64,000 nt of DNA from Nitrospinae bacterium bin107. Its GTDB lineage: Bacteria; UBA8248. Of the stretch, positions 4,371 through 21,782 are shown piece after piece. The DNA lies in the NCBI GenBank assembly GCA_002238965.1, contig MPNJ01000003.1, forward strand, positions 248,001 to 312,000, read 5' to 3'. The notes beneath the pieces are model-generated. The model was not told the origin of the DNA and ran no database searches. It worked only from the letters and a program-made list of their open reading frames with translations. Made by a program: the position numbers and the translations under genes. Each line of letters starts with the position of its first letter. Position 1 is the stretch's first letter.

Positions 4371-4379
4371 GCCCCGCTC

Positions 4380-5528: not shown

Positions 5529-6157
5529 TTCGATTCCTCTTTCTGCGCCCAAGGCAGGCTCATGACAGCACGCTCGCAGTCTTCGCGTAAAGACGCCTCA
5601 TCCTGAGAACATCTCGCAATGATATGCGCACCCTGCATCTGGGAAAAGAAAGAACGCGCATATACAAGCGGTGCGATTTCTCCCGGAAGCTCTCCTTCCA
5701 CTTGAGACTGCGCCAATACGAGAGCGATTCTCTCAAATACGCCGTCCCAGACCTCTTTCAGCCGCATGCGCATCTCTTCATCAAGAGCACTCAGTTCGAG
5801 CGAGAGGTTCCCGATGGGGCATCCGCAGCACGGGGAATCCTGATTCGGCATGCAGGCGTAGGATTCCGCCAGACACCTGATTTTCTCACGCCCACTCGCT
5901 TCTGTATCAAATGAGGGTTTGAGGTAGTTTTCGTGAAGAAGCGATTCGTAATGATCTATGATGGCGAGCCCCAAGTTTTTCTTGGAGCGAAAAAAATAGT
6001 ACAGACTCCCCCGGTTCACATTGGCGGCCTGCGCGACTATGTCCAGTGAGGTGGCGTGAAAGCCTCTTTGATAGACGAGCCACGCGGCCGCTTCTATGAT
6101 TTTGCGCTTCGTCCGGGAAGCCTTGGAACCTTTGGGCGTCGCCGTTGCTGCTTTCAT
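5525..6157 (-). CDS. TetR/AcrR family transcriptional regulator
   Basis: 210 residues. The N-terminal helix-turn-helix (residues about 18-65, with AAWLVYQRGFHATSLDIVAQAA and NRGSLYYFF) is that of TetR repressors. The C-terminal ligand domain contains a Cys pair region (SPCCGCPIG) resembling regulators that sense thiol-reactive ligands or metals. It heads the tetR-htrA-copA-copZ order and probably represses this operon through the inverted repeat at 6247-6270, which overlaps its own promoter. The inducer is unknown; copper is only an inference from the neighbours. Confidence 0.9.
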   Translation of the reverse strand: MKAATATPKGSKASRTKRKIIEAAAWLVYQRGFHATSLDIVAQAANVNRGSLYYFFRSKKNLGLAIIDHYESLLHENYLKPSFDTEASGREKIRCLAESYACMPNQDSPCCGCPIGNLSLELSALDEEMRMRLKEVWDGVFERIALVLAQSQVEGELPGEIAPLVYARSFFSQMQGAHIIARCSQDEASLREDCERAVMSLPWAQKEESK

Positions 6158-6235
6158 GCGCTCTCACTCCGGTGAGTGAAATTTCGTCTTGCGGAAAAAT
6201 GCTCCGCAATGGGCCACAAAGCGACCCACGAGAAA

Positions 6236-6264
6236 AATATAAACTTATTTAGTTAGTTAGTCAA
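6236..6264 (-). promoter_or_regulatory. sigma70-type promoter of tetR-htrA-copA-copZ
   Basis: On the minus strand TTGACT (6264-6259), a 17-base spacer and TATATT (6241-6236) lie about 80 bases upstream of the tetR start. Both boxes are near consensus and the element overlaps the inverted repeat. Confidence 0.65.
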
Positions 6265-6270
6265 CTAAAT
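6247..6270. promoter_or_regulatory. putative TetR operator (inverted repeat)
   Basis: ATTTAGTT at 6247-6254 and AACTAAAT at 6263-6270 form a perfect 8-bp inverted repeat with an 8-base spacer. It overlaps the -35 box and spacer of the minus-strand tetR promoter, an ideal place for autorepression. Confidence 0.65.
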
Positions 6271-6305
6271 TTATGGCTGCTGCCACACCAATCCTGAAAG
6301 ACATA

Positions 6306-7244
6306 TTACGCCGAGAGTTCTCGCAAGTGCGCTACGACGGAGCGCTCCAATGCGTCGAGGTTGTACCCACCTTCGAGCAGACAGATGAGCCGCCCCTCGC
6401 AAAGGCTTTCGGCAAGTTTCTTCAACCACCCGGTCAGGCGGGCGAAACCGGCTTCGGTGATCTTCAGCCCACCGAGCGGGTCGTCACGGTGCGCGTCGAA
6501 ACCCGCTGATACGACAACCGCTTCGGGACCATGCGCCTCGATGGCGGGGATGACGTTTTCCTCAAATTTCGCCAGATACGACTCCTCAGAGGTTCCCGCA
6601 GCGACGGGAATGTTGAGCGTCTTGCCCTCCCCGGCTCCTTCTCCCGTCTCGTTCGCAAGGCCCGTACCGGGATAGTGGGGATGCTGGTGCAGGGAGACGA
6701 AAAACACGTCCGGGTCTTGCCAGAAGATATCCTGCGTGCCGTTGCCGTGATGCACGTCCCAATCCACCACGGCGATTTTCCGGAGGCCGTGTTGTTCCTG
6801 CAGATACCGCACCAGGATGGAGGCGGTGGCGAAGAGGCAAAAACCCATCGACTGAAACGGCAAGGCGTGGTGGCCCGGCGGCCTGGCGGCGCAAAAGGCG
6901 TTGTCCACCTCACCACCAACTACGGCGTCCGCCGAACTCAGGGCCGCATCCACGGATGCAATCGCAGCCTCATAGCTTCCCGGACCAGCCTGCGTGTCTC
7001 CACCGTCCAGAATACACCTGCCGCTCGCACAAGCCTCGCGCACGAAGCGGTGGTGTTCTTCCTCATGCACCCGCAAAACCCACTCACTAGCGGCGTGGGG
7101 CTTACTCTCCATGTGTATGAGCGATGCGACTTGCGGGAGAATTCTCTCGGGCGCGAGACGCCTGGCGCGCTCTACGTTCTCCACATGCCGGCCGTTATCG
7201 TGCAGGAGCGATTCGGGCGTCCAGAAATAAGCGGTTCTGCTCAA
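6306..7244 (-). CDS. histone deacetylase family protein (acetylpolyamine amidohydrolase-like)
   Basis: 312 residues with the zinc-dependent HDAC/arginase fold. Motifs seen in order: RPPGHHA, DWDVHHGNGTQDIF (catalytic His pair and metal Asp-x-His region), SLHQHPHYPGTG, SAGFDAHRDDP (metal Asp) and EGGYNLDAL. In bacteria these enzymes deacetylate acetylpolyamines, other N-acetyl-amines or acyl-lysines in the cytosol. It starts with TTG at 7244, overlapping the stop of the ABC permease gene, so it is translationally coupled to the transporter. This suggests the importer brings in an acetylated amine or peptide substrate. Class II HDAC-like; the true substrate is open. Confidence 0.9.
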   Translation of the reverse strand: MSRTAYFWTPESLLHDNGRHVENVERARRLAPERILPQVASLIHMESKPHAASEWVLRVHEEEHHRFVREACASGRCILDGGDTQAGPGSYEAAIASVDAALSSADAVVGGEVDNAFCAARPPGHHALPFQSMGFCLFATASILVRYLQEQHGLRKIAVVDWDVHHGNGTQDIFWQDPDVFFVSLHQHPHYPGTGLANETGEGAGEGKTLNIPVAAGTSEESYLAKFEENVIPAIEAHGPEAVVVSAGFDAHRDDPLGGLKITEAGFARLTGWLKKLAESLCEGRLICLLEGGYNLDALERSVVAHLRELSA

Positions 7245-8158
7245 TGGAGTCTCACCCTGGGGTCGAGGACGGAATACATCAAGTCAACAATAAGGTTCAA
7301 AGACACGAAAATCAGGGCGGTGATGGTCACCGAGGCCTGCACGAGGGGGAAATCCTTGGCGTAGACGGCCTGTATGAGAAGCCTCCCCACGCCCGGCCAG
7401 GAGAAAATCGTCTCGACGATCACAGCACCCCCCAGCAGATGCCCGAACTCCAGGCCGATTATCGTGATGACCGGGATCATGGAGTTTCTGAGCACGTGCA
7501 GGTTGATGACGATCCATTCGGAAAGCCCCTTCGCTCGGGCGGTCTTCACGTATTCATGCCGGAGCACTTCCAGCATGGAGCTTCGGACTACCCGAGTGTT
7601 TCTCGCGATCGAGTAAGTAGAGAGCGCGATGGCGGGCAGAATCAGATGCTCCCAACCGCTTCTACCGCTCACGGGCAGCCACCTCAGACTCACCCCGAAG
7701 ATGAGGATCAGCATCAAGCCGAGCCAGAAAACCGGCATGGATTGCCCCAGTAACGCGAAAAGCATCCCCCCGTGATCATACGGTGAGCCGCGCTGCGTCG
7801 CGCTCACCACCCCTAACGGAAATGCCAGGATAATCGAGAGTACGAGCGCCACGAGGGCGAGTTCCAGAGTCGCGGGCAGGCGCTCCATGATGAGTTCGAA
7901 CGCGGGCTGGCGGTAGCGCAGGCTTTCGCCGAAGTCCCCCTGCACGGCCCTGCCCACGTATCGCCCGTATTGCACGAACCAGGGCTTGTCCAGCCCCATG
8001 TCCTGACGGAGTTGCTGGACCTCCTGAACCGTCCAGTCCTCACCCACCATGGTGTCGGTCGGATCGCCAGACAGGAACAAGACGGCGAACGAGATGAAAC
8101 TCACGCCGGCCACGACCACGATGGCCCGCAGGAATCGTCTGAAAAGATAGGCACCCAT
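7241..8158 (-). CDS. ABC transporter permease (DppB/OppB type)
   Basis: 305 residues and about six transmembrane helices. The N-terminal motif LSGDPTDTM with a following Gln/Arg-rich helix and the cytoplasmic EAA loop (VRSSMLEVLRHEYVKTARAKGLS) identify a DppB/OppB-type peptide/nickel importer permease. It sits between the substrate-binding lipoprotein gene (1 bp upstream) and the deacetylase gene (4-base overlap downstream). No ATPase gene is adjacent. Confidence 0.93.
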   Translation of the reverse strand: MGAYLFRRFLRAIVVVAGVSFISFAVLFLSGDPTDTMVGEDWTVQEVQQLRQDMGLDKPWFVQYGRYVGRAVQGDFGESLRYRQPAFELIMERLPATLELALVALVLSIILAFPLGVVSATQRGSPYDHGGMLFALLGQSMPVFWLGLMLILIFGVSLRWLPVSGRSGWEHLILPAIALSTYSIARNTRVVRSSMLEVLRHEYVKTARAKGLSEWIVINLHVLRNSMIPVITIIGLEFGHLLGGAVIVETIFSWPGVGRLLIQAVYAKDFPLVQASVTITALIFVSLNLIVDLMYSVLDPRVRLH

Positions 8159-8159
8159 T

Positions 8160-9707
8160 TTATGGATTCACTTCTTTCAACCGAATCGTAGGCAGGTAGA
8201 TTCTCTCATCCGGTCTCGGCGTCCACTGCGTTCTCGCGCTCAGACCGAAAAAATCGTACTGGTTCCAGAGGAACACCCACGGGCTATCCGCGCGAACAAT
8301 GCGCTGCATCCGGTAGCTGATTCTTCTGCGCTCGGCGGGATCGAACGTCTGACCGAGCATTTTGTAACCTTGAATAAAGTCCCGGTTCCTCCAGGCGGTG
8401 AGGTTTGCGAACAGGTTGGGCCTCAACACGCCCAGGTCGAGCTCTTCGTTGAAGGCGGAGCTGAACCCGTGAAAATACAAGGGCGCCAGCGTCTTTTTCC
8501 TTCTTCTCGCGAGGAAAACGGACCACTCCAGCGGGATCACCTCCACATGGACGCCCACGGTTCGGAAATATGCAGCCAAAAATTCCGACATCTCCTTTCC
8601 TTTCAGATACCTGGATGCAGGAACTTCAAGTTTTATCTCTAATGGTTTTCCATTTATTTCCAGCACGCCGTCCCCATTCGTGTCCTTAAGGCCGGCCTCG
8701 GCGAGGAGCGCTTTCGCCTTTCGGGGATCGTAGGCGTACGCCTTCATGTCCGGGGCGGCGTTCGGGGGGTTCACGATGCTCCGCATCCGCGAACCGTGGC
8801 CGAGAAAAACGTTTTTTGCGATTGCCTCGAAATCAATCGCATGATTCAGCGCCCGGCGGATGCGCACATCGCCCAGCACCCCGTGATCCGTGCGAATCCC
8901 CAGGTAAATCCTGCGTCCTCCCCGAGTCCCTTTGAGTTGCAGACCTTCTCCTCTCGCCAGGATGGTTTTCGACTGATCGGGCGAGATGTTCATAATAATG
9001 TCGGCCCCGCCCGTCTCAAGTTCCGCTATCCGGGCCGATGCCTCGGCCACCGGCCTCCAGAACACTTTTTTTATCGCAGGCTTACCCCGCCACCAGCCCT
9101 TGTTGGCCGCCATCTCGATGCGGTCGTCCTTGATCCATTTCACCAGTTTGTAGGGCCCAGTTCCCACAGGTTTTTTCAACAATTCCTTGGGCGGAGTCGA
9201 CGAATAATACCTGGGCGGCAGCATGAAAGCGTTGACCATCCAGACCGGCAGGGTGGCGACCGGACGCTTCGTGTGAATCTTCACGGTGTGGGAATCCACT
9301 TTTTCTATCCTGTCGAGGAATATCCGCCTGTACACCGTGATGCGCGGCTTCAGCTTCTTATCCCGCATCCGCTCGAAGGTGTAGCGCACGGATTCTGCAT
9401 CGAACGGCTCGCCGTTATGAAACTTCACACCCTTGCGGAGATGAAACGTCCAGACTTTTTTCGACTCATCCACCTCCCAACGCTCGGCCAGAGCGGGACC
9501 CAGCGTCATATCGCCGCGCCGCTCGATGAGCGGGTCGAACATGTTCATCAAGATGCTCCACTCGATGGTGGCGGTGGCGAAATGGGGGTCGAGCGTATTG
9601 GCCTCCACCGAGAGGATGACCGTGAAAGGCCCTTTTTTCGCTTCGCGGCCGCAGGCGGAGAGCGCCACGAGCAGCAGGCAAATTCCGCACAACAAGGCCC
9701 TTTTCAT
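8160..9707 (-). CDS. ABC transporter substrate-binding lipoprotein (SBP family 5)
   Basis: About 515 residues from the ATG at 9707, which follows GAAGGA by 8 bases. The N-terminal signal peptide ends in the lipobox LSAC, so the protein is predicted to be lipidated and to face the periplasm. The body matches family-5 binding proteins (DppA/OppA/NikA): WEVDESKKVWTFHLRKGVKFHNGEP and the RIRRALNHAID segment are hallmarks. It would deliver peptides or similar solutes to the flanking permeases. An in-frame start 24 bases upstream would spoil the signal peptide. Confidence 0.93.
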   Translation of the reverse strand: MKRALLCGICLLLVALSACGREAKKGPFTVILSVEANTLDPHFATATIEWSILMNMFDPLIERRGDMTLGPALAERWEVDESKKVWTFHLRKGVKFHNGEPFDAESVRYTFERMRDKKLKPRITVYRRIFLDRIEKVDSHTVKIHTKRPVATLPVWMVNAFMLPPRYYSSTPPKELLKKPVGTGPYKLVKWIKDDRIEMAANKGWWRGKPAIKKVFWRPVAEASARIAELETGGADIIMNISPDQSKTILARGEGLQLKGTRGGRRIYLGIRTDHGVLGDVRIRRALNHAIDFEAIAKNVFLGHGSRMRSIVNPPNAAPDMKAYAYDPRKAKALLAEAGLKDTNGDGVLEINGKPLEIKLEVPASRYLKGKEMSEFLAAYFRTVGVHVEVIPLEWSVFLARRRKKTLAPLYFHGFSSAFNEELDLGVLRPNLFANLTAWRNRDFIQGYKMLGQTFDPAERRRISYRMQRIVRADSPWVFLWNQYDFFGLSARTQWTPRPDERIYLPTIRLKEVNP

Positions 9708-9736
9708 GCGCAAATTTCCTTCAAAAAGCAAAACGA

Positions 9737-10669
9737 CTACATATCATCGCCGAGGCGGGGGTCCATGTAGTCCCGCAGCCAGTCGCCGATGAGGTTGATG
9801 CTCAAAACCGTCGCCATGATGGCGAGACCCGGAAAAGTCGCCATCCACCACGCGCCCCTCAGATATTCGCGCCCTTCGGAGAGCATGCCCCCCCAGGTGA
9901 CGACAGAAGGCGGAACGCCGAGCCCCAGGAAACTGAGCGAGGATTCGGAAATAATATTTCCCGCCACGGCGAAGGTGGCGATGACGATGAGAGGCGAGAG
10001 GGTGTTGGGCAGAATCTGCATGAACAATATGCGGTATACGGGATAGCCCAGGGCGTGGGTGGCCTCCACGAATTCGCGCTCCCTTATCGAGATGACCTGG
10101 CCTCTCACCACGCGGCCATACGCCACCCACCGGCTGATCCCCAGTACGATGATGATGTTGAACAGGCCCGGCCCGATGACCGCCATGATCGTGATCGCCA
10201 GCAAAATAAAGGGAAACGCCAGTTGAATCTCGGAAAACCCGCTGATGAGATCGTCTATTTTCCCGCCGAAAAAGCCGGAAACAAGACCCAGAACGATGCC
10301 GATCACCCCCGAAATCACCACCGAACTCAAGCCCACCAGAATGGAGACGCGGCCCCCGTAAATGAGCCGGCTCAGAATATCCCGGCCCAGCGCGTCGGTT
10401 CCCAGCATATAGCTCGCGCTTCCTCCCTCCATCCAAACGGGAGGCTTCAGACGCAGGTTCACGTCCACCTTACTCGGGTTTTGCGGCGCGATGAGAGGAG
10501 CCGTAAGGGAAAAGACGACCAGCAAAATGAGGAAAACGCCGCCGAGCATCGCCGGTTTGGATCGCATCATGCTCCGGCGGAATATCTCCCACCTGAGCTC
10601 CGATTCCGACATCATGGGGTATTCATCCGATTCAAAAGCAGATTCGGACATTGTTCTATCTTCGGACAT
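9737..10669 (-). CDS. ABC transporter permease (DppC/OppC type)
   Basis: 310 residues with an N-terminal helix near residues 40-60 and five more helices. GTDALGRDILSRLIYGGRVS and the EAA loop (GQVISIREREFVEATHALG) are typical of DppC/OppC. It is the first gene of the importer set; the binding protein follows after 29 bp. It faces the divergent ATP-grasp operon across about 70 bp. A second in-frame ATG at 10651 is possible. Confidence 0.93.
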   Translation of the reverse strand: MSEDRTMSESAFESDEYPMMSESELRWEIFRRSMMRSKPAMLGGVFLILLVVFSLTAPLIAPQNPSKVDVNLRLKPPVWMEGGSASYMLGTDALGRDILSRLIYGGRVSILVGLSSVVISGVIGIVLGLVSGFFGGKIDDLISGFSEIQLAFPFILLAITIMAVIGPGLFNIIIVLGISRWVAYGRVVRGQVISIREREFVEATHALGYPVYRILFMQILPNTLSPLIVIATFAVAGNIISESSLSFLGLGVPPSVVTWGGMLSEGREYLRGAWWMATFPGLAIMATVLSINLIGDWLRDYMDPRLGDDM

Positions 10670-10739: not shown

Positions 10740-12314
10740 GTGAGTTGCAGAAAAATTGTCAATACCGAAATGTCGAATTGTGTTGATATCCACAAGGCTA
10801 TCGAATTAGAATCGCCTGTTTTTGATTTTAGCGCCGTCTGGATAATTGTGAAGATTCTCGGTGAAGGAATTCTCTCCTTGCCCTCCTACAATAAAGATAA
10901 TTTCAATGAAGCGCTGATTTCCGCCGTTCCAGACGGATCGACGTTCGGTTTCCAGGGCCTGCGCGCAGTCGATTCGATCACCATGGAGAGCATCGTCCCC
11001 CTCGATTTCCTCATCGCCTGCGACTACGGGCTCGACGGGCCTGAATGGGACAGGCGCCTGCGTTATTTCGCCGTGGAGCGCGGGCAAAACAAGCGCATCG
11101 TGTGGACGCACTCATCCCTCGTAGAGGCGTACGAAGGAGCTTTGGGTTCGCAAATTCGGAAATTTCTCTCAATTGGAGATGCTCCCCGGTACGTCATCCC
11201 CTACCGCTCCACGGAATTCCTCGGCAAACTCGCAGAAGAAGCCGATGGCAGGCTCCGCATCCTGGCGAATCCGGTGGAAATCAAGACGAGATTCGACGAC
11301 AAGATTTCCTTCCGGCGCCGGGCCGTCGAAGCAGGGTTCGCCGTTCCACCGGGCGACGTGGTGGCGTTGGGCGAACTTGGACCCAATCAAATCGAGCAAT
11401 TCGGGCCTGTCATGATCATTTCGGAGCAAATCGGCTCCTCGGGCAACCAGACGCACCTCATCGATTCACCCGAGGCGCTCGCGAATAAACGCGATGAACT
11501 CATCGAAAAGCTGGGCTCTGACGCGCCGGTGATCGTCAGTACGTTTCTAAGCGGGCCCGCCGTCGGCACGGCGGGGCTGGTTTATGGCGGCAAACCCTGG
11601 ATGTCTCATCCTTCGGTGATGTTCACGGGCATCCCCGGCTGTTCAATGCACCGCTTCGATTACGCCGGAAGCGACTATGCGGCGTATCGGCTGGTTTCCG
11701 AAAAGAGCCGGCGAAAAATCGAGGAATTCACTCTGAAAATCGGAGAATGGATAGCCGAGGCGGGCTACCGGGGTATATACGGCGTCGATTTCATCGTCCA
11801 TCAGGACGAACCCTACGCCCTCGAACTCAACCCTCGCGTGCTGGGAACTACGCAACTGATGACCGAACTCGAGGAAAAACACAGCAGCGCACCCACCACC
11901 ACCTACTGGCATCTGGCCGAATTCCTGAATCCGGACGCCGCTCTCGATGCGCATCAGGATCTGCTCGCCGAACTCAGCCGGCCGGATTTATCCGGTTACC
12001 AGCTTTTGATTCGAAACACGAGGAGCTCGAAAATGAGAATCGGCCATTCGCTGGAGCCCGGCATCTACACCATCCAGAATGGGAGGCCTGAATTCATCCG
12101 GCGAGGCTTCCGCCTGAGCGACGTTCAAGAGCAGGATGAGGTGCTCGTCACTTGCTCTCCTCCGGCGAAAGGCACCATAGTAGAGCCGAGGGGAGCGTAC
12201 TGTAAGCTTGAGGGCGTCTCATCCATCTATGAAGGGGAAGAAGAGCAGATATCCTCCGCCGCCCGGGAAATGATAGATGCATTCACGCGTCGTCTCGCTC
12301 TTTCTCCCGCTTAG
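10740..12314 (+). CDS. ATP-grasp domain protein, function unknown
   Basis: Up to 524 residues. The C-terminal two-thirds read as an ATP-grasp ligase: a central ATP-binding strand region (PVMIISEQIGSSGNQTHLI), VIVSTFLSGPAVG and the metal-binding end GVDFIVHQDEPYALELNPRVLG, where Glu and Asn coordinate Mg. ATP-grasp enzymes activate a carboxylate as acyl phosphate and join it to an amine or thiol. The start is uncertain: GTG at 10740 or ATG at 10770. The next gene begins 13 bp downstream, so this heads a four-gene operon. I do not recognise a named family. Confidence 0.75.
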   Translation: MSCRKIVNTEMSNCVDIHKAIELESPVFDFSAVWIIVKILGEGILSLPSYNKDNFNEALISAVPDGSTFGFQGLRAVDSITMESIVPLDFLIACDYGLDGPEWDRRLRYFAVERGQNKRIVWTHSSLVEAYEGALGSQIRKFLSIGDAPRYVIPYRSTEFLGKLAEEADGRLRILANPVEIKTRFDDKISFRRRAVEAGFAVPPGDVVALGELGPNQIEQFGPVMIISEQIGSSGNQTHLIDSPEALANKRDELIEKLGSDAPVIVSTFLSGPAVGTAGLVYGGKPWMSHPSVMFTGIPGCSMHRFDYAGSDYAAYRLVSEKSRRKIEEFTLKIGEWIAEAGYRGIYGVDFIVHQDEPYALELNPRVLGTTQLMTELEEKHSSAPTTTYWHLAEFLNPDAALDAHQDLLAELSRPDLSGYQLLIRNTRSSKMRIGHSLEPGIYTIQNGRPEFIRRGFRLSDVQEQDEVLVTCSPPAKGTIVEPRGAYCKLEGVSSIYEGEEEQISSAAREMIDAFTRRLALSPA

Positions 12315-12327
12315 GACTTGGTGAAAA

Positions 12328-13497
12328 TTGAAACCAGATTTATTCGCATCCACCACCCGAGGATTGTTTCTGTCGCCTGAAAGCCCATTTACGTTTGAGG
12401 GGGAATTCACACCCGACCCCAGGCCCGTTCCCTCAAACGGAATCGCGCTGGGCGAAGTCGTCGTTGCGCCCAAGAACGCTCCCATCGATCGCCTGGAATC
12501 ACTCGAAGTCCTCCGGGGAACGCAGGACGCCTGGAATACGGGCGAAATAAAATTGCGCGAAAAAATGAACGTGGCCGTTGCGATCGGCGGGCGCTATGCG
12601 AATCGCAGCATTTCGGGCCGAGAGCCGGACTCGCCCGCAGAGCCCGGAGCCGTACTCGACCTGTTGAACGTCGGCGGCGTCTGCGGGATCCGCGCGAACC
12701 CCGAAACGCCGTGCGTAAAAATAGAGGTGAAAGGGGGCGTCTCGCTTCGAGGCGAATCCGCTCAGCTTTCCCATCTCCCCGTCATCCCCGATACAAGGTG
12801 CCCCGTGGATGAAGAGGGAATTCCCTGTGCTCCCATCATCCTGGTGACCGGCTCCGAGATGGACGTGGGTAAAACGACATGCGCCTCTTCGCTCGCCTCC
12901 GCCCTTCACTCTTCGGGCATCCACGTCTCATATGTGAAACTCACCGGAACCGGCCGGATGCGGGATCTCATGCAGGTGAACTACGGAAGGCCGCTCGGGT
13001 TTTTCGACTCGGCGAGACTCGGCTGGGATTTCGTCGATGCGGGTCTTGCTTCCACGTGCGGCGTCCCTGGACACAGGGTCAGGCGATGCGCCCAAAACCT
13101 GCTTCGCCACGCATGCGCGAAGGCGGAAATCGTCATCGCGGAACTGGCGGATTCTCCCTCATCGGACGCCAGCCTTCACGTAGCGAGCGACCCATGGGTC
13201 AGAGACTGGCTCGCGCGCAGGGGTCTGTTAATCTGCGCATGTGATACGCTGGAATCAACGCTCATCGTTCATTGGATTAGAAGCCACCTGGGGGTGGATG
13301 AGGAGAACATGCTGATTTCCGGAAGGCTCGCCAACGAAGCGCACGCGCGCGAGGAGGCGTACCGGATGACGGGGATACGCGCCTTGAGCTGCATCGCCCC
13401 GAACCCCACCTCCCTTGCAACCGACAATGCCGTGGGCGGCGCCATTGCGGACTGGGTGATCAAACACTTCATGCGTCAGCGCAAGTCGGTGTTCTAG
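12328..13497 (+). CDS. P-loop NTPase, DUF1611/BioD-like
   Basis: 389 residues from a TTG start. The N-terminal half (1-165) is a unique domain; the C-terminal half begins with the Walker A motif GSEMDVGKTT (175-184) followed by a helix and VKLTGTGR, the layout of DUF1611 and dethiobiotin-synthetase-like P-loop proteins. Some DUF1611 proteins act on D-amino acids as N-acetyl-D-glutamate enzymes, but that function cannot be carried over here. It lies 13 bp after the first and 17 bp before the second ATP-grasp gene, which implies one transcript. It probably uses ATP or GTP in the same pathway. Confidence 0.65.
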   Translation: MKPDLFASTTRGLFLSPESPFTFEGEFTPDPRPVPSNGIALGEVVVAPKNAPIDRLESLEVLRGTQDAWNTGEIKLREKMNVAVAIGGRYANRSISGREPDSPAEPGAVLDLLNVGGVCGIRANPETPCVKIEVKGGVSLRGESAQLSHLPVIPDTRCPVDEEGIPCAPIILVTGSEMDVGKTTCASSLASALHSSGIHVSYVKLTGTGRMRDLMQVNYGRPLGFFDSARLGWDFVDAGLASTCGVPGHRVRRCAQNLLRHACAKAEIVIAELADSPSSDASLHVASDPWVRDWLARRGLLICACDTLESTLIVHWIRSHLGVDEENMLISGRLANEAHAREEAYRMTGIRALSCIAPNPTSLATDNAVGGAIADWVIKHFMRQRKSVF

Positions 13498-13514
13498 GTC
13501 TCGAGAGCGAAACC

Positions 13515-15131
13515 TTGGCCTCACGTAAAACATTCAACCATCTCCGAATCGCACGTGAACCCTCTCTCTACTATCTCACGCCCGATGCAAGCGGCGGCGC
13601 CTGGGATCTGTACCGCGTGAGCCAGGAGTTCGATTCGTTTGAAGGTGATCTGAACGAAACGCTAATCGAAAGCCTCAACCACTGGGCGTCGCGCGAGCCC
13701 CGCTTCGCAGACTTGCGCATTCTGGAAGACTCGCCACCCATTCAACGCCCGGGAGAAATCCTTTTGCTGGACGGCTCTCCGAGCCGACTGCCCCTCACCA
13801 TGGAAACGGCGCGCGTAATGAGAGCGCACTTGAAGCAACTCGGGCTGTCCATCCCCGTCAGGGTACTGAACCGGCGCGAAGAACTTCTGGCGCGCGCCGC
13901 AAAGGCGCCGAAAGAACTGCTCGTCATCAGTCAGACCGCCCAGAGAAGCCTCTACGACGCGACCCTCGCCAAGGTTCTGGAGGCGCGGGGAATCGTCGTG
14001 GCGCCGGGGTCTCTCACCGCTCCCGGCGGGCCGCTCTCCAACAAGAAAACCACCTATGAACTCCTGAACGGAAACGGCGAGAACGTCCAAAACCCGAAAT
14101 CGGACGGGCATGGACATCGGCTGACAGCCCGCTATGAAGTGGTGGAATTAAACGGGGGAAGACCTGCGGACACCGCCGCCGCCATCCTGGATTCCGCCTC
14201 CGCCTTGTCGCAGAAATGGGGGGCGGGGACTTTCTTCGTCAAACCGCAAGAAGGCGGCGGGGGACGTGGATGTTTCCGCCTGGACGTCTACCCCAACGGG
14301 TTCGGGATGCCGGATTTAAGCAGGCTCGGCGTAGCGGCGGAACATGCGACACCCCTGCCCTTGTCCCTTGACGCGGAAAACCCCTATCACCTCCAGGCGA
14401 TGGACTGGCTTGTTCAACGCTTCCAGGCCAGCCCTGCGACTTCGAGAGCCTATATCAAGACCCAAAGGGTGGAAGGCGACTCTTCACCGGACGTTTTGGG
14501 GGAAATGCTCAGGAACTGCGCGCCCAGACTCGAATCCGAACTGCGCGAAGCGTCCCGCTCCCGGGAGGATTCGATTCGCCTCCTGGCGAGCGCCATCGAA
14601 AACTACGAGCAGGTATTCGACACGCGCTATCTGCCGCTGATATGCAACTGGATCGATTTCGGCCTTTTCAGCATTCGCGTGCATCTGAGACTCAGCCGCG
14701 AGGGAATCGTTGTGGAAACGATCTACGCCCGGCTATTTCCGGTGGAATTCTCGGATGATTCGGTCGGGGTCGTCGGCGTGGACAGCATCACGAACCGCAC
14801 GGATGGAGGCATGGAACTGAACCGCTATGCGCCATTGTTACCCCCTCTGGTCGCATACGCGGGAGGCGCGGAGCGATTGTGCGAGAAGATTCGCGGCGCT
14901 TTTGACGCGTTCGCGCGCTTTTTGTCCCTCCTCGACCCCGGGGAGCGCGGCAGGGTGCCAGTTCGGGCCGAATTCGATCTATCGCCGCTCAACGGCCTGA
15001 TCGCCGAGGGCAACGCCGACCCCGTCCGCGCCCAATGCGCCAACAGCCGCTGGGAAAGGTTCAGCGAAAACTGCGCGCAGTGGACGGATGACGCCTTGTC
15101 GTTCTACTCATGGAAATCTCAAAAAGTCTAA
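13515..15131 (+). CDS. second ATP-grasp-type protein, function unknown
   Basis: 538 residues from a TTG start preceded by a purine-rich CGAGAGCGA stretch. The ATP-grasp signs are LSNKKTTYELL (about 175-185) and FFVKPQEGGGGRG (about 240-252), a Lys followed by a Gly-rich loop that closes over ATP. The C-terminal third has RAEFDLSPLNGLIAEGNADP where Mg ligands are expected, but it is less typical. It differs clearly from the other ATP-grasp protein in this operon, so it is not a recent duplicate. A ligase acting on the product of the first enzyme is a reasonable guess. Confidence 0.6.
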   Translation: MASRKTFNHLRIAREPSLYYLTPDASGGAWDLYRVSQEFDSFEGDLNETLIESLNHWASREPRFADLRILEDSPPIQRPGEILLLDGSPSRLPLTMETARVMRAHLKQLGLSIPVRVLNRREELLARAAKAPKELLVISQTAQRSLYDATLAKVLEARGIVVAPGSLTAPGGPLSNKKTTYELLNGNGENVQNPKSDGHGHRLTARYEVVELNGGRPADTAAAILDSASALSQKWGAGTFFVKPQEGGGGRGCFRLDVYPNGFGMPDLSRLGVAAEHATPLPLSLDAENPYHLQAMDWLVQRFQASPATSRAYIKTQRVEGDSSPDVLGEMLRNCAPRLESELREASRSREDSIRLLASAIENYEQVFDTRYLPLICNWIDFGLFSIRVHLRLSREGIVVETIYARLFPVEFSDDSVGVVGVDSITNRTDGGMELNRYAPLLPPLVAYAGGAERLCEKIRGAFDAFARFLSLLDPGERGRVPVRAEFDLSPLNGLIAEGNADPVRAQCANSRWERFSENCAQWTDDALSFYSWKSQKV

Positions 15132-15229
15132 GCTAGAATCAACCTGTTCAGCACAGCCTGCGTTCCGGAAATCCCAGAGGGCGGGATACACGCGAAGGAC
15201 CCTCATCCACCGCTCTACAAGTGATTGAC

Positions 15230-18200
15230 ATGGCGAAACTCCTCAAAAAAGCCTTCAACATCCAGGAAGAGGAGTTGCTCGTCTTCTCGGTATTCTTTTT
15301 CTTCTACTTCCTGATCGGGATCCAGTTCTCCATCGGGCTCACCGTATCCGAAGCGTTGTTCCTCTCGGAAGTCGGCCCGGGATTTCTCCCCTACATGTAC
15401 ATTTTCAATGCCCTGATGATCATCTTCATCAGCACGTTCTACTCCTCACTGACCGAAAAACTCTCGATTCCGGCGATGTTCAAGACCGTCTTGATCTTTT
15501 TCATCGCGCTCGTCTTCGGCATCAAATTGCTTATATTCGCCGATTTCCGCGCCTATGCGATGCCGATCGCTTTTCCGCTTCTCCACACGCTGTTCGTCAT
15601 GTTCACGAACATGCTGCCGAACAATTTCCGCGCCCTTTACGGCCAGTACCTGGACGTTTTGCAATCCAAGCGGCTCGTTCCGATCATCCTCACCGGGGGG
15701 CGCTACGGCGGTATAGTGGGCGGTCTGGCCATTCCATTGCTCATCCCTGTCCTGGGGAGCGTCTCGAACCTGCTCTACGTATGGATTGGAGCCATCGTCG
15801 TCAGCATCGGGGTGGTGCAGTATGCAGAATGGCGGCTCAGAGACCATCTCATCGAAGACGCGGGCCCCAAAAAACGCAAAACGACGAAGAAGACGGCATC
15901 AAAAGGCGGCAATCTCGCACTGATGAAGTCGAACAAATATGTCTGCGCGTTCGCGCTTTTCAGCTTCATCGTTGTGATTCTCAGGAGTTTTCAGGATTTC
16001 CAGTACAGCCTCATCTTCCGCGAGGTTTATCCCGATCGCGCGCAACTCGCCTCGTTCCTCGGGTATTTCACCGCCATCGGGAGCGCCTTCTCGCTGCTCG
16101 TACAGACGTTCATCACCCCGCGCATCATCAAGCGGCTCGGACTGGGAACGGCGAACCTCCTCTACCCGCTCACGACCATCATCGGCCTTGCCGGCATGGC
16201 GATTTCGCCCGGTTTCTATTCCGCCGTCTTCCTGCGCTTCAACAACAAGAATCTCCAGGAATCGATTCGAAACGCCATCAACGCCCTGCTCTATAACGCC
16301 GTCTCCCCCTCGATCCGCGCGCGCGTGGGCGCGTTCGTCGCCGGCCAGGTGGTCGCCGTGGCCAGCATCGTCAGCGGCGTCACCCTGCTCATCATCAAAC
16401 CCACCGGCCTCGCCCTATTCCCCCTGAGCGCAGGCCAATTGGCGCTCATCTCCCTGTTCATCGCGTTCGCCTATCTCGCCACAGGCTTCTTCGTGCGCCA
16501 TGAATACGGCGCCGCGCTGCGCCGGATGCTCGAGGAGCGAAACCTGGGGCTGTTCCGCTACGCCCAGGAGGGATACGGCCCGGTTGACGATGAGAACATG
16601 GCGATACTCAGAAAAAACATCCGCGAGGGGGATGACGATCTTAGCGTATTCACGGCACAGATGATGGCGGAAAGCGGCAGAAGCGAAACCAGTCAAATTA
16701 TTCTCGAAGAAGTCCCCCGGCGGAAAGGACATGCGGCGGCCGAGTTGCTGAAAATTCTCGCCAAGGCGCCCGGCGCCGAAGTGGGCGAGAAAATACGGCC
16801 CCTGCTGGAGGAATACCTCACTTGCGAGGAGCCCGTCCTGCAGTGCGCCGCCATGGATGCGGCCGAATCCATCGGACTGACGGAGGAAACGGCGGAACTG
16901 GTTCACGAGAACCTGGAGAGCGGCTCCCCCGAAGTCAGGGCGCGCGCCGTCGAGCTGCTTGTGCGCTCCGATGACCTGTTCTGGCTCGCCAACGGCCTCC
17001 AAACGCTCCACCGGATGCTGAACGAAGAAGACGCGGCGGCCAGAGTCTGCGCCCTCAGGTGCATGGGAGAGCTCCAGAATCCGCGCTTCATCAAACGGTT
17101 GATTCCCTATCTCTACCAGAACGAGGAGAAAGTCCGCGAAGCCGCTTTGAAGGCGATAGAAGTTCTGGCCATGAACCAGGGGGTCGATGAGGAGAGCATG
17201 GACGAAGTCATCCGGGTGACCACCTCGGATGAGAGCGCGGCCATCAGGCGCAGAGGCGTCCGGCAACTGGGCAACAAAGGCACGCGGGAGAATTTCGAAT
17301 GCGCCCTGACCGCTCTTTCGGACGTCGATTCTCTGGTGAGGCGAGAGGCCGTCGAATCGCTCAAGAACATGAAGCGAAAAGGAACCCTCTCTCTCGAAGG
17401 CTCCGGTCTTGTATCGTTCATCGCTCCGCTGTTGTTCAAAAGCGCGAAAAACGGCTCCCGCGAGATGAGCGAGCAGGAAATCGTGGACTCCCTTTCCGGG
17501 TTCGCAGTCGAACACCTGAAGGAGGTGTATGACGTCATCAATCACCTGCACGTCATCGAACGCCGGGAAAACGAATCCGCCTTCACGATGTTAAGAAAAG
17601 CGCTCGAAGACGTCGTCGCGGAAAGACAACTCGTCCTGCTGGAATTGCTGGGGGTGATAGGGGACGAGAAAACAGTGGACACCGTGTCGGAGTCCCTCTC
17701 CCGGGGCGGCTCCTCATCGAGAGCGATCGCCATCGAGACGCTCTCGAACTTCTCCTCGACAGGCAATACGAGACTCCTGATTCTGGCCCTGGAGCCCCTG
17801 TTGCTCGGCAGATCGACCGCCGATAAGGTTTCCGAGGGCAGGAAACTATGGGAGATACCCGATAAATCGATTGATGAGGTTCTGACGACCTACATGGATT
17901 CCGAGAACGCGTGGCTGGAAGCCATCGCCGTGGATGCGGCGGGCAAACATCTTGCCGGCGAAGCGGATGGAGAAACCGCCTCGCGGCGCGCGCAGTTCAA
18001 GGAGCGGGCAACCGAGGGCGACCCGTACGTCCGTGAGGCCGCGGTTGCCGCTTTAAGAATAATCAAGAAAGATGAAGACGACGTTGTGTCGTTATTCAGA
18101 ACCCTGGAAAATGACGAGAGTCAACAGGTTCGCCTTCAGGTACGCCGCGAACTCCTGCGTTATGAGGGAAGCGGCGAAAATCTATCCGAACAGGAGAAAA

Positions 18201-18631
18201 TCATGCTCTCGACCATCGAAAAAGCCTTGTTCCTGAAAGGCGTCAACATGTTCGAGACGATGAGCGCGGATGAACTGAAAATACTGAGCAACATTTCCAG
18301 GGAAATTCAGATAGAGGCGGGAAAGGTTCTTTTCGAGCAGGGAGACCTCTGCGATTACCTCTATGTCATCGTGGATGGGGAAATAGAGATCATCCTCAAC
18401 CAGGAGAGCGGGGAACCCAGGATTCTCGCCACGCTCGCCCCCCCGAACTCGTTCGGTGAAATCGCGCTGTTTGGCGATGAGGGAAGAAGCGCAGGCGCAC
18501 GCGCGAGCCGGGACACCTCACTGCTGGGCATCGAGAAAGAACCTCTTCTCGAACTGATCCACGAGCACCCGACCATCTCCATCGCCATCATCGGCCAGCT
18601 CGCCGGCATCATCAGAAGCCAGAACGAATAG
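15230..18631 (+). CDS. MFS-like transporter fused to HEAT repeats and a cyclic-nucleotide-binding domain
   Basis: About 1133 residues. Residues 1-430 form roughly 10-12 hydrophobic helices resembling a major-facilitator or nucleotide-translocase-like carrier, with a Lys-rich cytoplasmic loop (KKRKTTKKTASK) between the halves. Residues about 440-1000 are a run of amphipathic helix pairs (for example VREAALKAIEVLA, IRRRGVRQLGN, VREAAVAALRIIK), typical HEAT/armadillo repeats. The last 130 residues are a cNMP-binding domain with the phosphate cassette FGEIALFGDEGRSAGARA, keeping the Glu and Arg that bind cAMP or cGMP. A GTG nine bases upstream (15221) is an alternative start. It is 98 bp after the second ATP-grasp gene and probably ends that operon. 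Confidence 0.8.
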   Translation: MAKLLKKAFNIQEEELLVFSVFFFFYFLIGIQFSIGLTVSEALFLSEVGPGFLPYMYIFNALMIIFISTFYSSLTEKLSIPAMFKTVLIFFIALVFGIKLLIFADFRAYAMPIAFPLLHTLFVMFTNMLPNNFRALYGQYLDVLQSKRLVPIILTGGRYGGIVGGLAIPLLIPVLGSVSNLLYVWIGAIVVSIGVVQYAEWRLRDHLIEDAGPKKRKTTKKTASKGGNLALMKSNKYVCAFALFSFIVVILRSFQDFQYSLIFREVYPDRAQLASFLGYFTAIGSAFSLLVQTFITPRIIKRLGLGTANLLYPLTTIIGLAGMAISPGFYSAVFLRFNNKNLQESIRNAINALLYNAVSPSIRARVGAFVAGQVVAVASIVSGVTLLIIKPTGLALFPLSAGQLALISLFIAFAYLATGFFVRHEYGAALRRMLEERNLGLFRYAQEGYGPVDDENMAILRKNIREGDDDLSVFTAQMMAESGRSETSQIILEEVPRRKGHAAAELLKILAKAPGAEVGEKIRPLLEEYLTCEEPVLQCAAMDAAESIGLTEETAELVHENLESGSPEVRARAVELLVRSDDLFWLANGLQTLHRMLNEEDAAARVCALRCMGELQNPRFIKRLIPYLYQNEEKVREAALKAIEVLAMNQGVDEESMDEVIRVTTSDESAAIRRRGVRQLGNKGTRENFECALTALSDVDSLVRREAVESLKNMKRKGTLSLEGSGLVSFIAPLLFKSAKNGSREMSEQEIVDSLSGFAVEHLKEVYDVINHLHVIERRENESAFTMLRKALEDVVAERQLVLLELLGVIGDEKTVDTVSESLSRGGSSSRAIAIETLSNFSSTGNTRLLILALEPLLLGRSTADKVSEGRKLWEIPDKSIDEVLTTYMDSENAWLEAIAVDAAGKHLAGEADGETASRRAQFKERATEGDPYVREAAVAALRIIKKDEDDVVSLFRTLENDESQQVRLQVRRELLRYEGSGENLSEQEKIMLSTIEKALFLKGVNMFETMSADELKILSNISREIQIEAGKVLFEQGDLCDYLYVIVDGEIEIILNQESGEPRILATLAPPNSFGEIALFGDEGRSAGARASRDTSLLGIEKEPLLELIHEHPTISIAIIGQLAGIIRSQNE

Positions 18632-18786: not shown

Positions 18787-18854
18787 CAGCCGGATTTTAG
18801 CCAAGAAACCCGGAATTTCCGCTCAGAACGCCGGTGGGGGAGCGTTTTTTCAAG

Positions 18855-21782
18855 ATGCAAGGTCGAGACTTCAAGCCTCCGGAAGAGAAAACCAGTCCAA
18901 TCACGTTTTTCATCCTAGGCCTCATCATGGTCGCGGTGACGTTTTGGACCGTCTGGGACGAAGCGTTCACGCGCAGACCCTGGAAGCAATACCAGAAACA
19001 GTTCAACGCCTATGAAAGAACCCAGGTAGAGAAAAAACTCGCCAGTCTCAAGAAAACCACGGGTTCCGCGGTCGCCGACCTCGACAAGAAAATCGCCGCG
19101 CAACAACAAAAACTCGCCGCAGACGAAGAACTCAGACAACTCAAGGACGAACTCACGAAAAGCGAGTTGGACGCTTTCGAGAAAGTGCAGGAGCTGGGCT
19201 TCAGAAAAGCGCTTTTCGATCAGTCCTACTTCTATCTCCAGGAAGCCATCCGGCAGGGACACGATAAAGAAGCCGAGCAAAAGGAAGTCGACGAAGCCAA
19301 GGCCCTGCTCGATGAGATAACACCCGTCGCGGCGAAAGCCGAAGCCGCCAGAGACGCGATAAAGGCGAAGATTGAGGCCAAAGAAAAAGAGTTGAAAACG
19401 CTCGAAGCGACGAAACGAAAAGTGGCGGGCGATATTTCCTTCCAGGAGCGCCGGCTGAAAGGCATCGCCGCCCGACCCTATGAAATCAGCCAACTCGTCC
19501 TTCGCGAATACGAACGCAACAATTTCAACGAACCCGTGATGAAAGTCGAACGGTGCCAGACCTGTCACCTGGGCATCAACAGGGCGGGCTTCGAGGATGC
19601 GCCCCAGCCGTTCCGCACGCATCCCAACAGACGCCTCTATCTCTCGACGCACGAATTCAACAAGGTCGGCTGCACGCTTTGCCACGGCGGCCAGGGAACG
19701 GCCGTCACCAGCCTCAATACGGCCCACGGCTATGTGCAATTCTGGGAAGACCCCCTCCTCCGCGGCAGCGAAACGCAAACCAAGTGCAGAAGCTGCCACA
19801 CCGAGATATTCAACATTCCCGAAGCGCCTAAAATCTCGCGCGGCATCTCGCTCACCCGGGAACTCGGATGCAACGGCTGCCACACCCTCCCGGGCACGGA
19901 AGGCCTGCGCAAGGTGGGGCCGGACCTCTCGAGAATCCAGGAGAAAGTGGCGCCCGCCTGGCTCGTCTCCTGGGTCAAAAGGCCGAAAGACTACAACCCG
20001 CGCACCCGGATGCCCTATTTCAGCCTGACGGACCAGGACGCGCTGGACATCGCCACATACGTCTGGCGGCAGGGCCCGCGCAAGGTGGAATCGGCCGAGT
20101 TCCCGAATCTGGACGACGCCTCTCTGATCCAAAAAGGAAAATCCGTATTCGAAGACGTCGGGTGTCTGGGTTGCCACATCCGCAACGAAAAAGATGCGGA
20201 ACCCGGGCCCCCGCTCGAGGGCGTGAACGGCAGGCCCCTCGTGTACAGGAACCGCGATTTCGCGCCGGCGCTTCAGAACATCGGCGCCAAGGTCCAGCCC
20301 GACTGGCTGTTCCGGTGGCTGAAAAACCCGAAGGCGTACTGGCATGACACCAAGATGCCGAGCCTCCGCCTCACGGATGAGGAGGCGAGCGCGGTCACCT
20401 CGTATCTCATCAGCCTCACGCCCGCCTCGAAGCGGCCCAAACCCCGGAAGCTGGGCGATGAGGCCTCCTTTGAGCGCGGCAAGAAACTCGTGGCGACGCG
20501 CGGTTGTTTCGGCTGCCACGTCATCCCCGGCACCGAAGAACTCTCCAAGATCGGGCCGGACCTGACACGATTCGCCGCCAAAAAACCGTTCGAACTATCG
20601 TTCGGCAACGTGGTGGACATGCCCCACACATGGGAATCCTGGACCTTCGGGAAGCTCAAAAACCCGCAACTCTACCAGACAGAGCGCGAGACGCTGCTCA
20701 TGCCGAACTTCGAATTCTCGGACGCGGAAGCCTCCGCCATTCGCACCCTGCTGCGCTCCATGACGCCGCACGGCGCGCCGCACAGCGTCCACCAGGTGCT
20801 CGACACGCGCGCCCGGCGAATCGAAAACGGCCGCCGGATGATCGAGAAATACAACTGCAACGGCTGCCACGTCATCGAGAACTGGGGCGGCGACCTCCTC
20901 AGGCGCTATGAAGACAAGACGAACGGCCCGCCCCTGCTGAACGGCGAGGGCAGAAAAGTCCAGCCCGACTGGTTCTTCGGCTTCCTGCGCAACGTCGTGA
21001 CGCTGAGGCCATGGCTCAAGGTGCGGATGCCCAGCTTCCAGATGCCCGACGAAGACGCCGCGGCACTCGTGGACTACTTCGCCGCGCTGGACTCGAAACT
21101 GAACCCCTACATCCATTTCGACGCCAAGAGCGTGAGCGCGGAAAACTACAAGGCCGGAAAGCAACTCTTCGAGATGGCCGAATGTCTGGCCTGTCATGGC
21201 GCATGGCCGCCTCCGCCGGGGCAGGAGCCACCGACGGCGCCGAACCTCTCGTTCGCCAAGAATCGCCTGCGTCCCGACTGGGTAGTCGACTGGCTGATAT
21301 ATCCGGGCAGAATCCAGCCCGGAACCAAGATGCCGAATTTCTTCGAGGGCGCGGGTTCAGTGGCCGATATCGTCAAGGGCGTCCAGGGAGATAAGGAAGA
21401 CGACCTGTTCATCTACGAGCTCGAAGCCACCAAGGAAGTCGAATTGCCGGAAGAGCAATTCGCCACCCTGCGGGTCGGAGACGCTACCCACCTCGTCAAG
21501 GTAACGGAAATCGATGAAAAGAAAATGACCATCTCCTCGCCCACCGATCTCGGGAAGAGCATCGGCAAAGCGACGATAGAGAGCCACGGCGAGCCCATCG
21601 ACGAGGAACTCCTCGGGGGAGACGCGTACCGGCAAATCCGCGCGATGCGCGATTACATGATGATCGAGACGAATTTCCTCAAACCCGCTGAGTCCAGCGC
21701 GAAGAACGAGGCGCCTCAAACGGATAAACCCGAAAAAGAAGCCGAGAACAAACAGACAGATAGCGACGCATCGCCTGGCTAG
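18855..21782 (+). CDS. membrane-anchored octaheme cytochrome c
   Basis: About 975 residues from ATG 18855 (a GTG at 18834 is in frame). A transmembrane helix near residues 15-35 anchors it with the bulk in the periplasm. A charged coiled coil follows (about 45-205). Eight CxxCH heme sites are seen at about Cys234, 273, 311, 339, 437, 551, 668 and 777. The last five are each followed by a Met-Pro pair (RMPYF, KMPSL, LMPNF, RMPSF, KMPNF), the distal Met of class I cytochrome c, so there are five monoheme domains after a triheme segment. The tail is Lys/Glu-rich. It probably carries electrons from the quinol-oxidising complex to a terminal reductase or oxidase. Confidence 0.88.
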   Translation: MQGRDFKPPEEKTSPITFFILGLIMVAVTFWTVWDEAFTRRPWKQYQKQFNAYERTQVEKKLASLKKTTGSAVADLDKKIAAQQQKLAADEELRQLKDELTKSELDAFEKVQELGFRKALFDQSYFYLQEAIRQGHDKEAEQKEVDEAKALLDEITPVAAKAEAARDAIKAKIEAKEKELKTLEATKRKVAGDISFQERRLKGIAARPYEISQLVLREYERNNFNEPVMKVERCQTCHLGINRAGFEDAPQPFRTHPNRRLYLSTHEFNKVGCTLCHGGQGTAVTSLNTAHGYVQFWEDPLLRGSETQTKCRSCHTEIFNIPEAPKISRGISLTRELGCNGCHTLPGTEGLRKVGPDLSRIQEKVAPAWLVSWVKRPKDYNPRTRMPYFSLTDQDALDIATYVWRQGPRKVESAEFPNLDDASLIQKGKSVFEDVGCLGCHIRNEKDAEPGPPLEGVNGRPLVYRNRDFAPALQNIGAKVQPDWLFRWLKNPKAYWHDTKMPSLRLTDEEASAVTSYLISLTPASKRPKPRKLGDEASFERGKKLVATRGCFGCHVIPGTEELSKIGPDLTRFAAKKPFELSFGNVVDMPHTWESWTFGKLKNPQLYQTERETLLMPNFEFSDAEASAIRTLLRSMTPHGAPHSVHQVLDTRARRIENGRRMIEKYNCNGCHVIENWGGDLLRRYEDKTNGPPLLNGEGRKVQPDWFFGFLRNVVTLRPWLKVRMPSFQMPDEDAAALVDYFAALDSKLNPYIHFDAKSVSAENYKAGKQLFEMAECLACHGAWPPPPGQEPPTAPNLSFAKNRLRPDWVVDWLIYPGRIQPGTKMPNFFEGAGSVADIVKGVQGDKEDDLFIYELEATKEVELPEEQFATLRVGDATHLVKVTEIDEKKMTISSPTDLGKSIGKATIESHGEPIDEELLGGDAYRQIRAMRDYMMIETNFLKPAESSAKNEAPQTDKPEKEAENKQTDSDASPG

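Follow-up and report, generated by a model that had tools for sequence, protein, structure and literature searches.

A conserved trio of predicted ATP-grasp and P-loop proteins in the bacterial phylum UBA8248 may make an N-acylated, amide-linked metabolite

Introduction

What might be made by a run of four same-strand genes, here called G1 to G4, on contig MPNJ01000003.1 of Nitrospinae bacterium bin107? The genes lie in a stretch of 64,000 nucleotides (contig positions 248,001 to 312,000, forward strand) which we refer to as the window. A sequence-only reading of this DNA had seen in them a four-gene operon in which two ATP-grasp proteins (G1 and G3) flank a P-loop protein (G2) and are followed by a large membrane-HEAT-cNMP protein (G4), and had suggested an amide-linked product served by a coupled carrier and sensor. 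As we argue below, G1, G2 and G3 probably constitute a tight biosynthetic unit that may yield an N-acylated, amide-linked small molecule, with G4 probably being a separate, independent neighbour.

Results

G1, G2 and G3 are kept together across the phylum

We infer that the window belongs to UBA8248, a GTDB phylum that clusters with Tectomicrobia (PMC10839748). Our sample comprised 386 genomes, 18 of the window's phylum (all of one family) and 368 from outside it. The four open reading frames (ORFs) are present exactly where the sequence-only reading had placed them (Table 1), and conservation, with orthologues in relatives at 47-97% identity, marks all of them as protein-coding. The gaps between them in the window are 13 bp (G1-G2), 17 bp (G2-G3) and 89 bp (G3-G4). 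G1, G2 and G3 were each detected in the same 14 of the 18 phylum genomes, while in the other four not one of them was detected. In 12 of these 14 genomes the order G1-G2-G3-G4 lies on a single contig (the G4 gene of G014 being cut by the contig end), and in the other two, G006 and G015, contig ends cut the locus and the partial order is consistent.

The spacing of the trio is tight, most gaps being shorter than 20 bp; the start codons behind these lengths are our choice. G1 and G2 are -4 to 39 bp apart in all but one of 13 loci, the exception being locus L020 of genome G010, where a frame break shortens the G1 ORF and makes the resulting value of -185 meaningless. The G2-G3 gap is -4 to 17 bp across 12 loci, with 4-bp overlaps in G012 and G014, and the G3-G4 gap is larger, at 55 to 95 bp (12 loci). 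Within the trio, spacing below 40 bp is kept at 47-59% protein identity between genera. We therefore regard G1-G2-G3 as probably a tight biosynthetic unit whose genes would be co-transcribed. The sequence-only reading had named a lack of conserved order in related genomes as one finding that would refute it, and the order is in fact conserved; what does not survive of its four-gene operon is the fourth member, since the evidence reduces it to a three-gene unit plus a neighbour, within flanks that are colinear as well.

G1 is an ATP-grasp protein with a later start

G1 passes the Pfam profile ATP-grasp_3 (PF02655) with 28.8 bits against a cut-off of 23.2, which bears out its earlier assignment. 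Residues D350, E362, N364 and R366 are invariant among 13 orthologues, and we take them to be the ATP-grasp site, with its D and E-x-N metal site. (Alignments leave out the contig-cut G015 gene for G3 and the G006 genes for G1 and G2; that of the G4 membrane part holds 12 sequences.) Against the NCBIfam model PRK06524, aligned over residues 171-468, G1 scores 63.2 bits, far under the cut-off of 684, and on the strength of this shortfall a true biotin carboxylase is ruled out.

The true start of G1 very probably lies near the TTG at 10878, later than the listed 10740. We place it there because residue 59 is the first invariant column among the 13 orthologues, because three relatives have an in-frame stop ahead of the conserved part, and because AAGGAA stands 8 bases 5' of this TTG. 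A promoter-like site precedes this start (Table 1), but chance alone would produce such sites: the region has four, with 3.0 expected.

Beyond the phylum, the G1 profile matches 32 of the 368 genomes, five of them with E <= 1e-25, and no G2 or G3 relative occurs in any of the eight outside G1-relative loci that were read. A tandem alpha/beta-hydrolase/esterase gene lies near the G1 relative in four of these eight loci (L142:8628-13313, L146:8760-12241, L148:6902-10439 and L145:4072-7306). It is directly next to it in three, two small opposite ORFs separating the genes in L142. A PRK06524-like ATP-grasp protein and a tandem Abhydrolase-Esterase protein possibly form a separate conserved pair.

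G3 probably represents a new ATP-grasp family

Found in 14 of the 18 phylum genomes, G3 was seen in none of the 368 others. Two short patterns from the G3 alignment, searched against 84,980 species genomes, returned ten loci, each on a contig equal in length to a phylum contig found before; distant relatives could escape such a search. G3 matches no Pfam or NCBIfam family, and sequence searches of the PDB with it returned nothing from ATP-grasp enzymes. When 13 members were profile-searched, three unrelated weak matches resulted, one member each and none of them ATP-grasp.

Our assignment comes instead from motifs and predicted fold. K243-P244, the glycines GGGG at 247-250, R388, D488, E498 and N500 are invariant in 13 orthologues; the KP strand, glycine-rich loop and D-x9-E-x-N presumably represent the ATP-grasp pattern. 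A Foldseek search with a poorly predicted AlphaFold model listed 50 rows, 25 of which are ATP-grasp enzymes judging by their names (TTLL6 and carboxylases included). A D-Ala-D-Ala ligase heads the list, and the best E is 1.3e-3, none being <= 0.001; the other 25 rows are 22 type II dehydroquinases, two RsmI and one glycosyltransferase. Structural alignment by VIA gave ATP-grasp enzymes in 30 of 50 rows, including all that extend beyond residue 170, and the 20 remaining rows are confined to residues 74-169. LysX is the best of them, with a Z of 7.1 (root-mean-square deviation (rmsd) 4.5 over 163 residues), a score of the kind that can come from a common arrangement. Thus, while no profile confirms the ATP-grasp label that the sequence-only reading gave to G3, the invariant motifs and the weak matches of the model make it highly likely that the protein is of this type.

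G2 has the predicted two-domain fold of DUF1611 proteins

G2 has a P-loop, and its matches to DUF1611 and BioD profiles are all sub-threshold. Its score against Pfam DUF1611 (PF07755) is 16.9 with a cut-off of 25, and all ten G2 relatives that were checked likewise fall under that cut-off. The AlphaFold model is good, with a mean predicted local distance difference test (pLDDT) score of 88.2, and VIA aligns it to the DUF1611 structures 2g0t and 2obn with Z of 14.5 and 14.1. To 7xrj, whose PDB title names it N-acetyltransferase DgcN, Z is 13.2 (rmsd 3.1 over 178 residues, model residues 71 to 380, 15% identity). Among 50 VIA rows only the alignments to these three structures start at residues 71-116; the others start at 157-168. 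As modelled, G2 carries the two-domain DUF1611 fold, and so the sequence-only description of a DUF1611/BioD-like P-loop protein holds for the fold and fails at the Pfam cut-off.

DgcN is, we assume, a DUF1611 protein acting on D-glutamate. By its predicted fold and by the genomic context of its relatives described below, G2 is a probable amino-acid N-acyltransferase. For D-acidic amino acids a new racemization pathway has been described, with dgcN as its key gene (PMC12363236).

The window's own genome has ArgJ, which makes G2 dispensable for arginine synthesis and leaves it open to a different role. As ArgJ is present, and as no arg genes turned up in the window or in nine relative loci, G2 is ruled out as the acetylglutamate synthase of its host's arginine pathway.

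In most of the loci read, outside relatives of G2 stand beside argC

The G2 profile matches 31 of the 368 outside genomes; in 14 of these the match is long, with E <= 2e-15, and in the other 17 it is limited to the surroundings of the P-loop. In 9 of the 14 outside loci read, the G2 relative lies directly beside argC on the same strand (L075, L077-L082, L086 and L087; e.g. L077:9381-10433 and L081:9333-10382). All nine argC-linked loci hold argB, six hold ArgR within the locus and six a relative of N-acetylornithine carbamoyltransferase; the NCBIfam cut-off for the latter enzyme was passed by all four carbamoyltransferases tested. Pfam searches with ten selected neighbours returned ArgC-type dehydrogenases, a carbamoyltransferase, amino-acid kinases, ArgR and one AstE/aspartoacylase-type deacylase. 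No Pfam or NCBIfam name above cut-off applies to the argC-linked P-loop family itself.

ArgJ was not found in 10 of the 14 genomes with a G2 relative, among them seven of the nine argC-linked ones (six of seven genera), and the same search found it in 10 of 14 control genomes. Its absence from seven of nine genomes would be expected if the argC-linked family supplied acylglutamate. An alignment of 22 sequences (8 of the 13 phylum G2 proteins plus the 14 outside relatives) has 20 invariant columns, and the tree divides the family into three groups: argC-linked (support 77/99), other, and phylum G2. With its place beside argC and with ArgJ missing from seven of its nine genomes, the argC-linked P-loop family is a candidate for an unrecognised acylglutamate synthase.

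The outside loci beyond the argC-linked set offer two further observations. In L076 the G2 relative adjoins the AstE/aspartoacylase-type deacylase, and in three loci of one genus (L083:9256-12257, L084:7426-10409 and L085:1365-4356) it stands between an oxidoreductase-like ORF and an unassigned ORF of about 650 residues.

A putative divergent importer lies upstream and G4 downstream

Upstream of G1, on the opposite strand, lies a gene trio for a putative peptide-type ATP-binding cassette (ABC) importer (Table 1) with Pfam matches to BPD_transp_1, SBP_bac_5 and OppC_N. No ABC ATPase was found among seven ORFs tested from 1959 to 10669, the rest of the genome not having been searched. The importer's permease gene permC adjoins G1 in 11 of the 12 relative loci that hold G1 plus upstream sequence, a suggestive, not firm, link to G1-G3. 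At the far end, the 3' end of the last gene of the importer operon, that for the OppB-type permease, shares 4 bases with a histone-deacetylase-family gene (6306-7244).

For G4, Pfam confirms the HEAT and cNMP parts of the MFS-HEAT-cNMP architecture proposed earlier (HEAT_2, 1e-23; cNMP_binding, 3.7e-20), both C-terminal to the membrane part. The MFS part is less secure: the membrane part reaches MFS_1 in only 3 of 12 orthologues, no NTT-type Pfam family is listed for it, and residues 207-320 align weakly, over part of its length, with a solved carrier, ADP,ATP carrier protein 1 (9j3n; E 0.0044). Relatives of the membrane part occur in 35 of the 368 outside genomes. We read 15 outside G4 loci, from 13 of these 35 genomes, and found no G1, G2 or G3 relative at E <= 0.001 in any of them; the cNMP domain is fused in six, encoded by a neighbouring ORF in six and not found in three. 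Because the family occurs elsewhere without these partners in the loci read, we treat G4 as a neighbour, and its membership of the pathway is unlikely. The distribution of the family, together with the larger gap to G3, leaves the proposed coupled carrier and sensor unsupported.

Downstream of G4, at 18834-21782, the window encodes a 982-residue protein with many CxxCH motifs that is conserved in relatives; in G009 the ORFs after its relative look Rieske-like and cytochrome-b-like by eye. In G016, locus L176 (1870-2884) holds a G4 tail of about 300 residues beside a 31-residue tail of an OppB-type permease, a deletion scar or an assembly fault at the place where the importer and G1-G4 stand in relatives.

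Table 1. Coordinates, in window positions, of the genes and of the promoter-like site considered in this study.
Feature	Position	Strand	Basis or remark
OppB-type permease	7241-8158	-	Pfam
Family-5 solute-binding protein	8160-9731	-	Pfam
OppC-type permease	9737-10669	-	Pfam
Promoter-like site TTGATA-18-TAGAAT	10783..10812	+	10/12 matches; 5' of the corrected G1 start
G1, ATP-grasp ligase	listed ORF 10740-12314; probable 10878..12314	+	about 478 aa from TTG 10878
G2, P-loop protein, distant DUF1611/DgcN relative, probable amino-acid N-acyltransferase	12328..13497	+	predicted fold; argC context of relatives
G3, probable ATP-grasp ligase, new family seen only in the window's phylum	13515..15131	+	motifs; weak fold matches
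G4, membrane (MFS/nucleotide-carrier-like)-HEAT-cNMP protein, probably an independent neighbour	15221..18631	+	Pfam

Discussion

In the reading that we prefer, and to which we assign a probability of roughly 45%, the trio makes an N-acylated, amide-linked small molecule; for this we infer the chemistry, the order of the steps, the product, co-transcription and the link to the importer. G2 would transfer an acetyl or similar group from acyl-CoA to an amino acid's amino group, the substrate being likely glutamate or one of its relatives. G1 and G3 would follow, using ATP to activate carboxylates for amide-bond formation, so that an N-acylated peptide-like metabolite results; the divergent family-5 importer may bring in a precursor or recover the product. 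The sequence-only suggestion of an amide-linked product from two ATP-grasp proteins and a P-loop protein is plausible and supported by the conservation of the trio, without the carrier and sensor that had been attached to it.

Several observations speak against the preferred reading, beginning with its parts. The G3 model is poor (mean pLDDT 46.5), and hhalign found no similarity between the G3 and G1 alignments (probability 0.6%). Phylum G2 sits on a long branch separate from the argC-linked group, and long-branch joins may be false; where argC-linked relatives have GDG, G2 has ADSP or ADAP, and its reaction may differ. ArgJ is present in two of the nine argC-linked genomes (both of one genus), and it is also missing from three of the five genomes without the argC link (again one genus). 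Other acetylglutamate synthases, ArgA and those of GNAT type, can replace each other (PMC9026213). Since such substitutes exist, the absence of ArgJ, the one synthase searched for, is by itself weak support for acylglutamate supply by the argC-linked family. The importer link has exceptions too: in L020 (G010), with about 1.2 kb of upstream sequence, permC was not found beside G1, and in G016 the solute-binding protein orthologue lies elsewhere, broken into two frames, with no permeases or G1-G3 in the 20 kb read. Further adverse points concern the P-loop half of G2 and the flanks of the locus, and these are best considered together with the alternatives that they favour.

The most serious of these takes G2 for a BioD/CTP-synthase-like enzyme of ATP-dependent carboxylate activation or carbamate formation, so that the trio would perform three successive ATP-dependent steps, ending in a peptide, ureido or amide compound that carries no acyl group. 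Two enzymes that are not acyltransferases, CTP synthase (Z up to 14.4) and dethiobiotin synthetase (Z 12.7 alone and up to 13.1 as part of a bifunctional protein), match the P-loop half of the G2 model about as well as the DUF1611 structures do. Moreover, BioD was the sole significant match (E < 0.001) in PDB sequence searches with G2, and the P-loop lysine K182 is invariant in the 22-sequence alignment. None of these enzymes, however, aligns well ahead of the P-loop domain as 2g0t, 2obn and 7xrj do, and 9 of the 14 outside relatives stand in N-acetyl-type arginine operons, which need an acylation step. We consider this alternative rather unlikely.

A second alternative is uptake and salvage: the importer would bring in a peptide or D-amino-acid compound that G1-G3 modify or recycle, with no new product being made. 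The neighbourhood of permC and G1 fits such a role, as does the precedent of DgcN in D-glutamate use. So does the G007 locus, from which the importer and G1-G4 are jointly missing; the histone deacetylase (HDAC)-type gene there directly abuts the cytochrome gene, with the outer genes kept. None of G1-G4 was detected in either G007 or G009 (G007 having only cNMP-domain matches), and the matches to the solute-binding protein in these two genomes reach at most 37% identity, compared with 56-71% for orthologues; G008 cannot be judged, as a contig end cuts its cytochrome gene. On the other hand, genes for a peptidase, racemase or deacylase are missing from the unit, the presence of two ATP-grasp ligases points to synthesis, and the importer operon is divergent, with no ABC ATPase gene beside it and with the exceptions in G010 and G016 described above. 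Salvage thus appears to us improbable. Equally improbable is that G1-G3 share no function and keep their order through the colinearity of a small phylum alone: order by itself is weak evidence of joint function where the neighbours on both sides are colinear too as far as contigs reach (copper-type ATPase, TetR, HDAC-type, importer, cytochrome, endonuclease V, RelA/SpoT), but the trio keeps its gaps below 40 bp and its 4-bp overlaps despite the divergence between genera, and is either all present or all undetected while the outer genes persist in G007.

Returning to synthesis of an N-acylated product by the trio, we propose, more tentatively, an undescribed pathway to an N-acyl peptide-like metabolite, with two ATP-grasp ligases, one of them from a new family, and an N-acyltransferase of the P-loop rather than the GNAT type. 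Among the wider G2 family there would also be an acylglutamate synthase, so far unrecognised, that serves arginine operons of the N-acetylornithine type. Among the open-access papers searched we found no described pathway with this gene set and none that pairs DUF1611 with ATP-grasp. If the proposal is true, the locus amounts to a small, clonable pathway for a new amide-linked metabolite, from uncultured bacteria close to the Tectomicrobia, which are rich in natural products. It would add a new ATP-grasp family and extend DUF1611-like P-loop proteins from D-amino-acid use to biosynthesis. The argC-linked family would, in turn, account in a directly testable way for the first step of arginine synthesis, the formation of N-acylglutamate, in some bacteria.

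Each component resembles something known and departs from it. The domain order of G4 is that of other MFS/nucleotide-carrier-HEAT-cNMP proteins, and among the loci checked it stands beside G1-G3 only in this phylum. PRK06524-like proteins share with G1 the alignment over residues 171-468, differing in score and in a setting without G2 or G3, with a hydrolase/esterase gene nearby in four of the eight loci read. Members of the argC-linked P-loop family match the G2 profile over long stretches (E 1.7e-17 to 1.8e-23), whereas G2 has its own long branch, a genome with ArgJ and no arg genes found near it. With DgcN, G2 shares the two-domain P-loop fold; it differs in falling below the DUF1611 cut-off and in having no DgcA-like partner gene in the unit. 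Closest to the trio as a whole are the ATP-grasp amidoligase systems, reportedly described by Iyer et al. in 2009, in which ATP-grasp proteins and an acyltransferase partner make small amide-linked metabolites. In those systems the acetyltransferase is reportedly of the GNAT type; here G3 fits no ATP-grasp profile tested, and the place of the GNAT enzyme would be taken by a putative P-loop acyltransferase.

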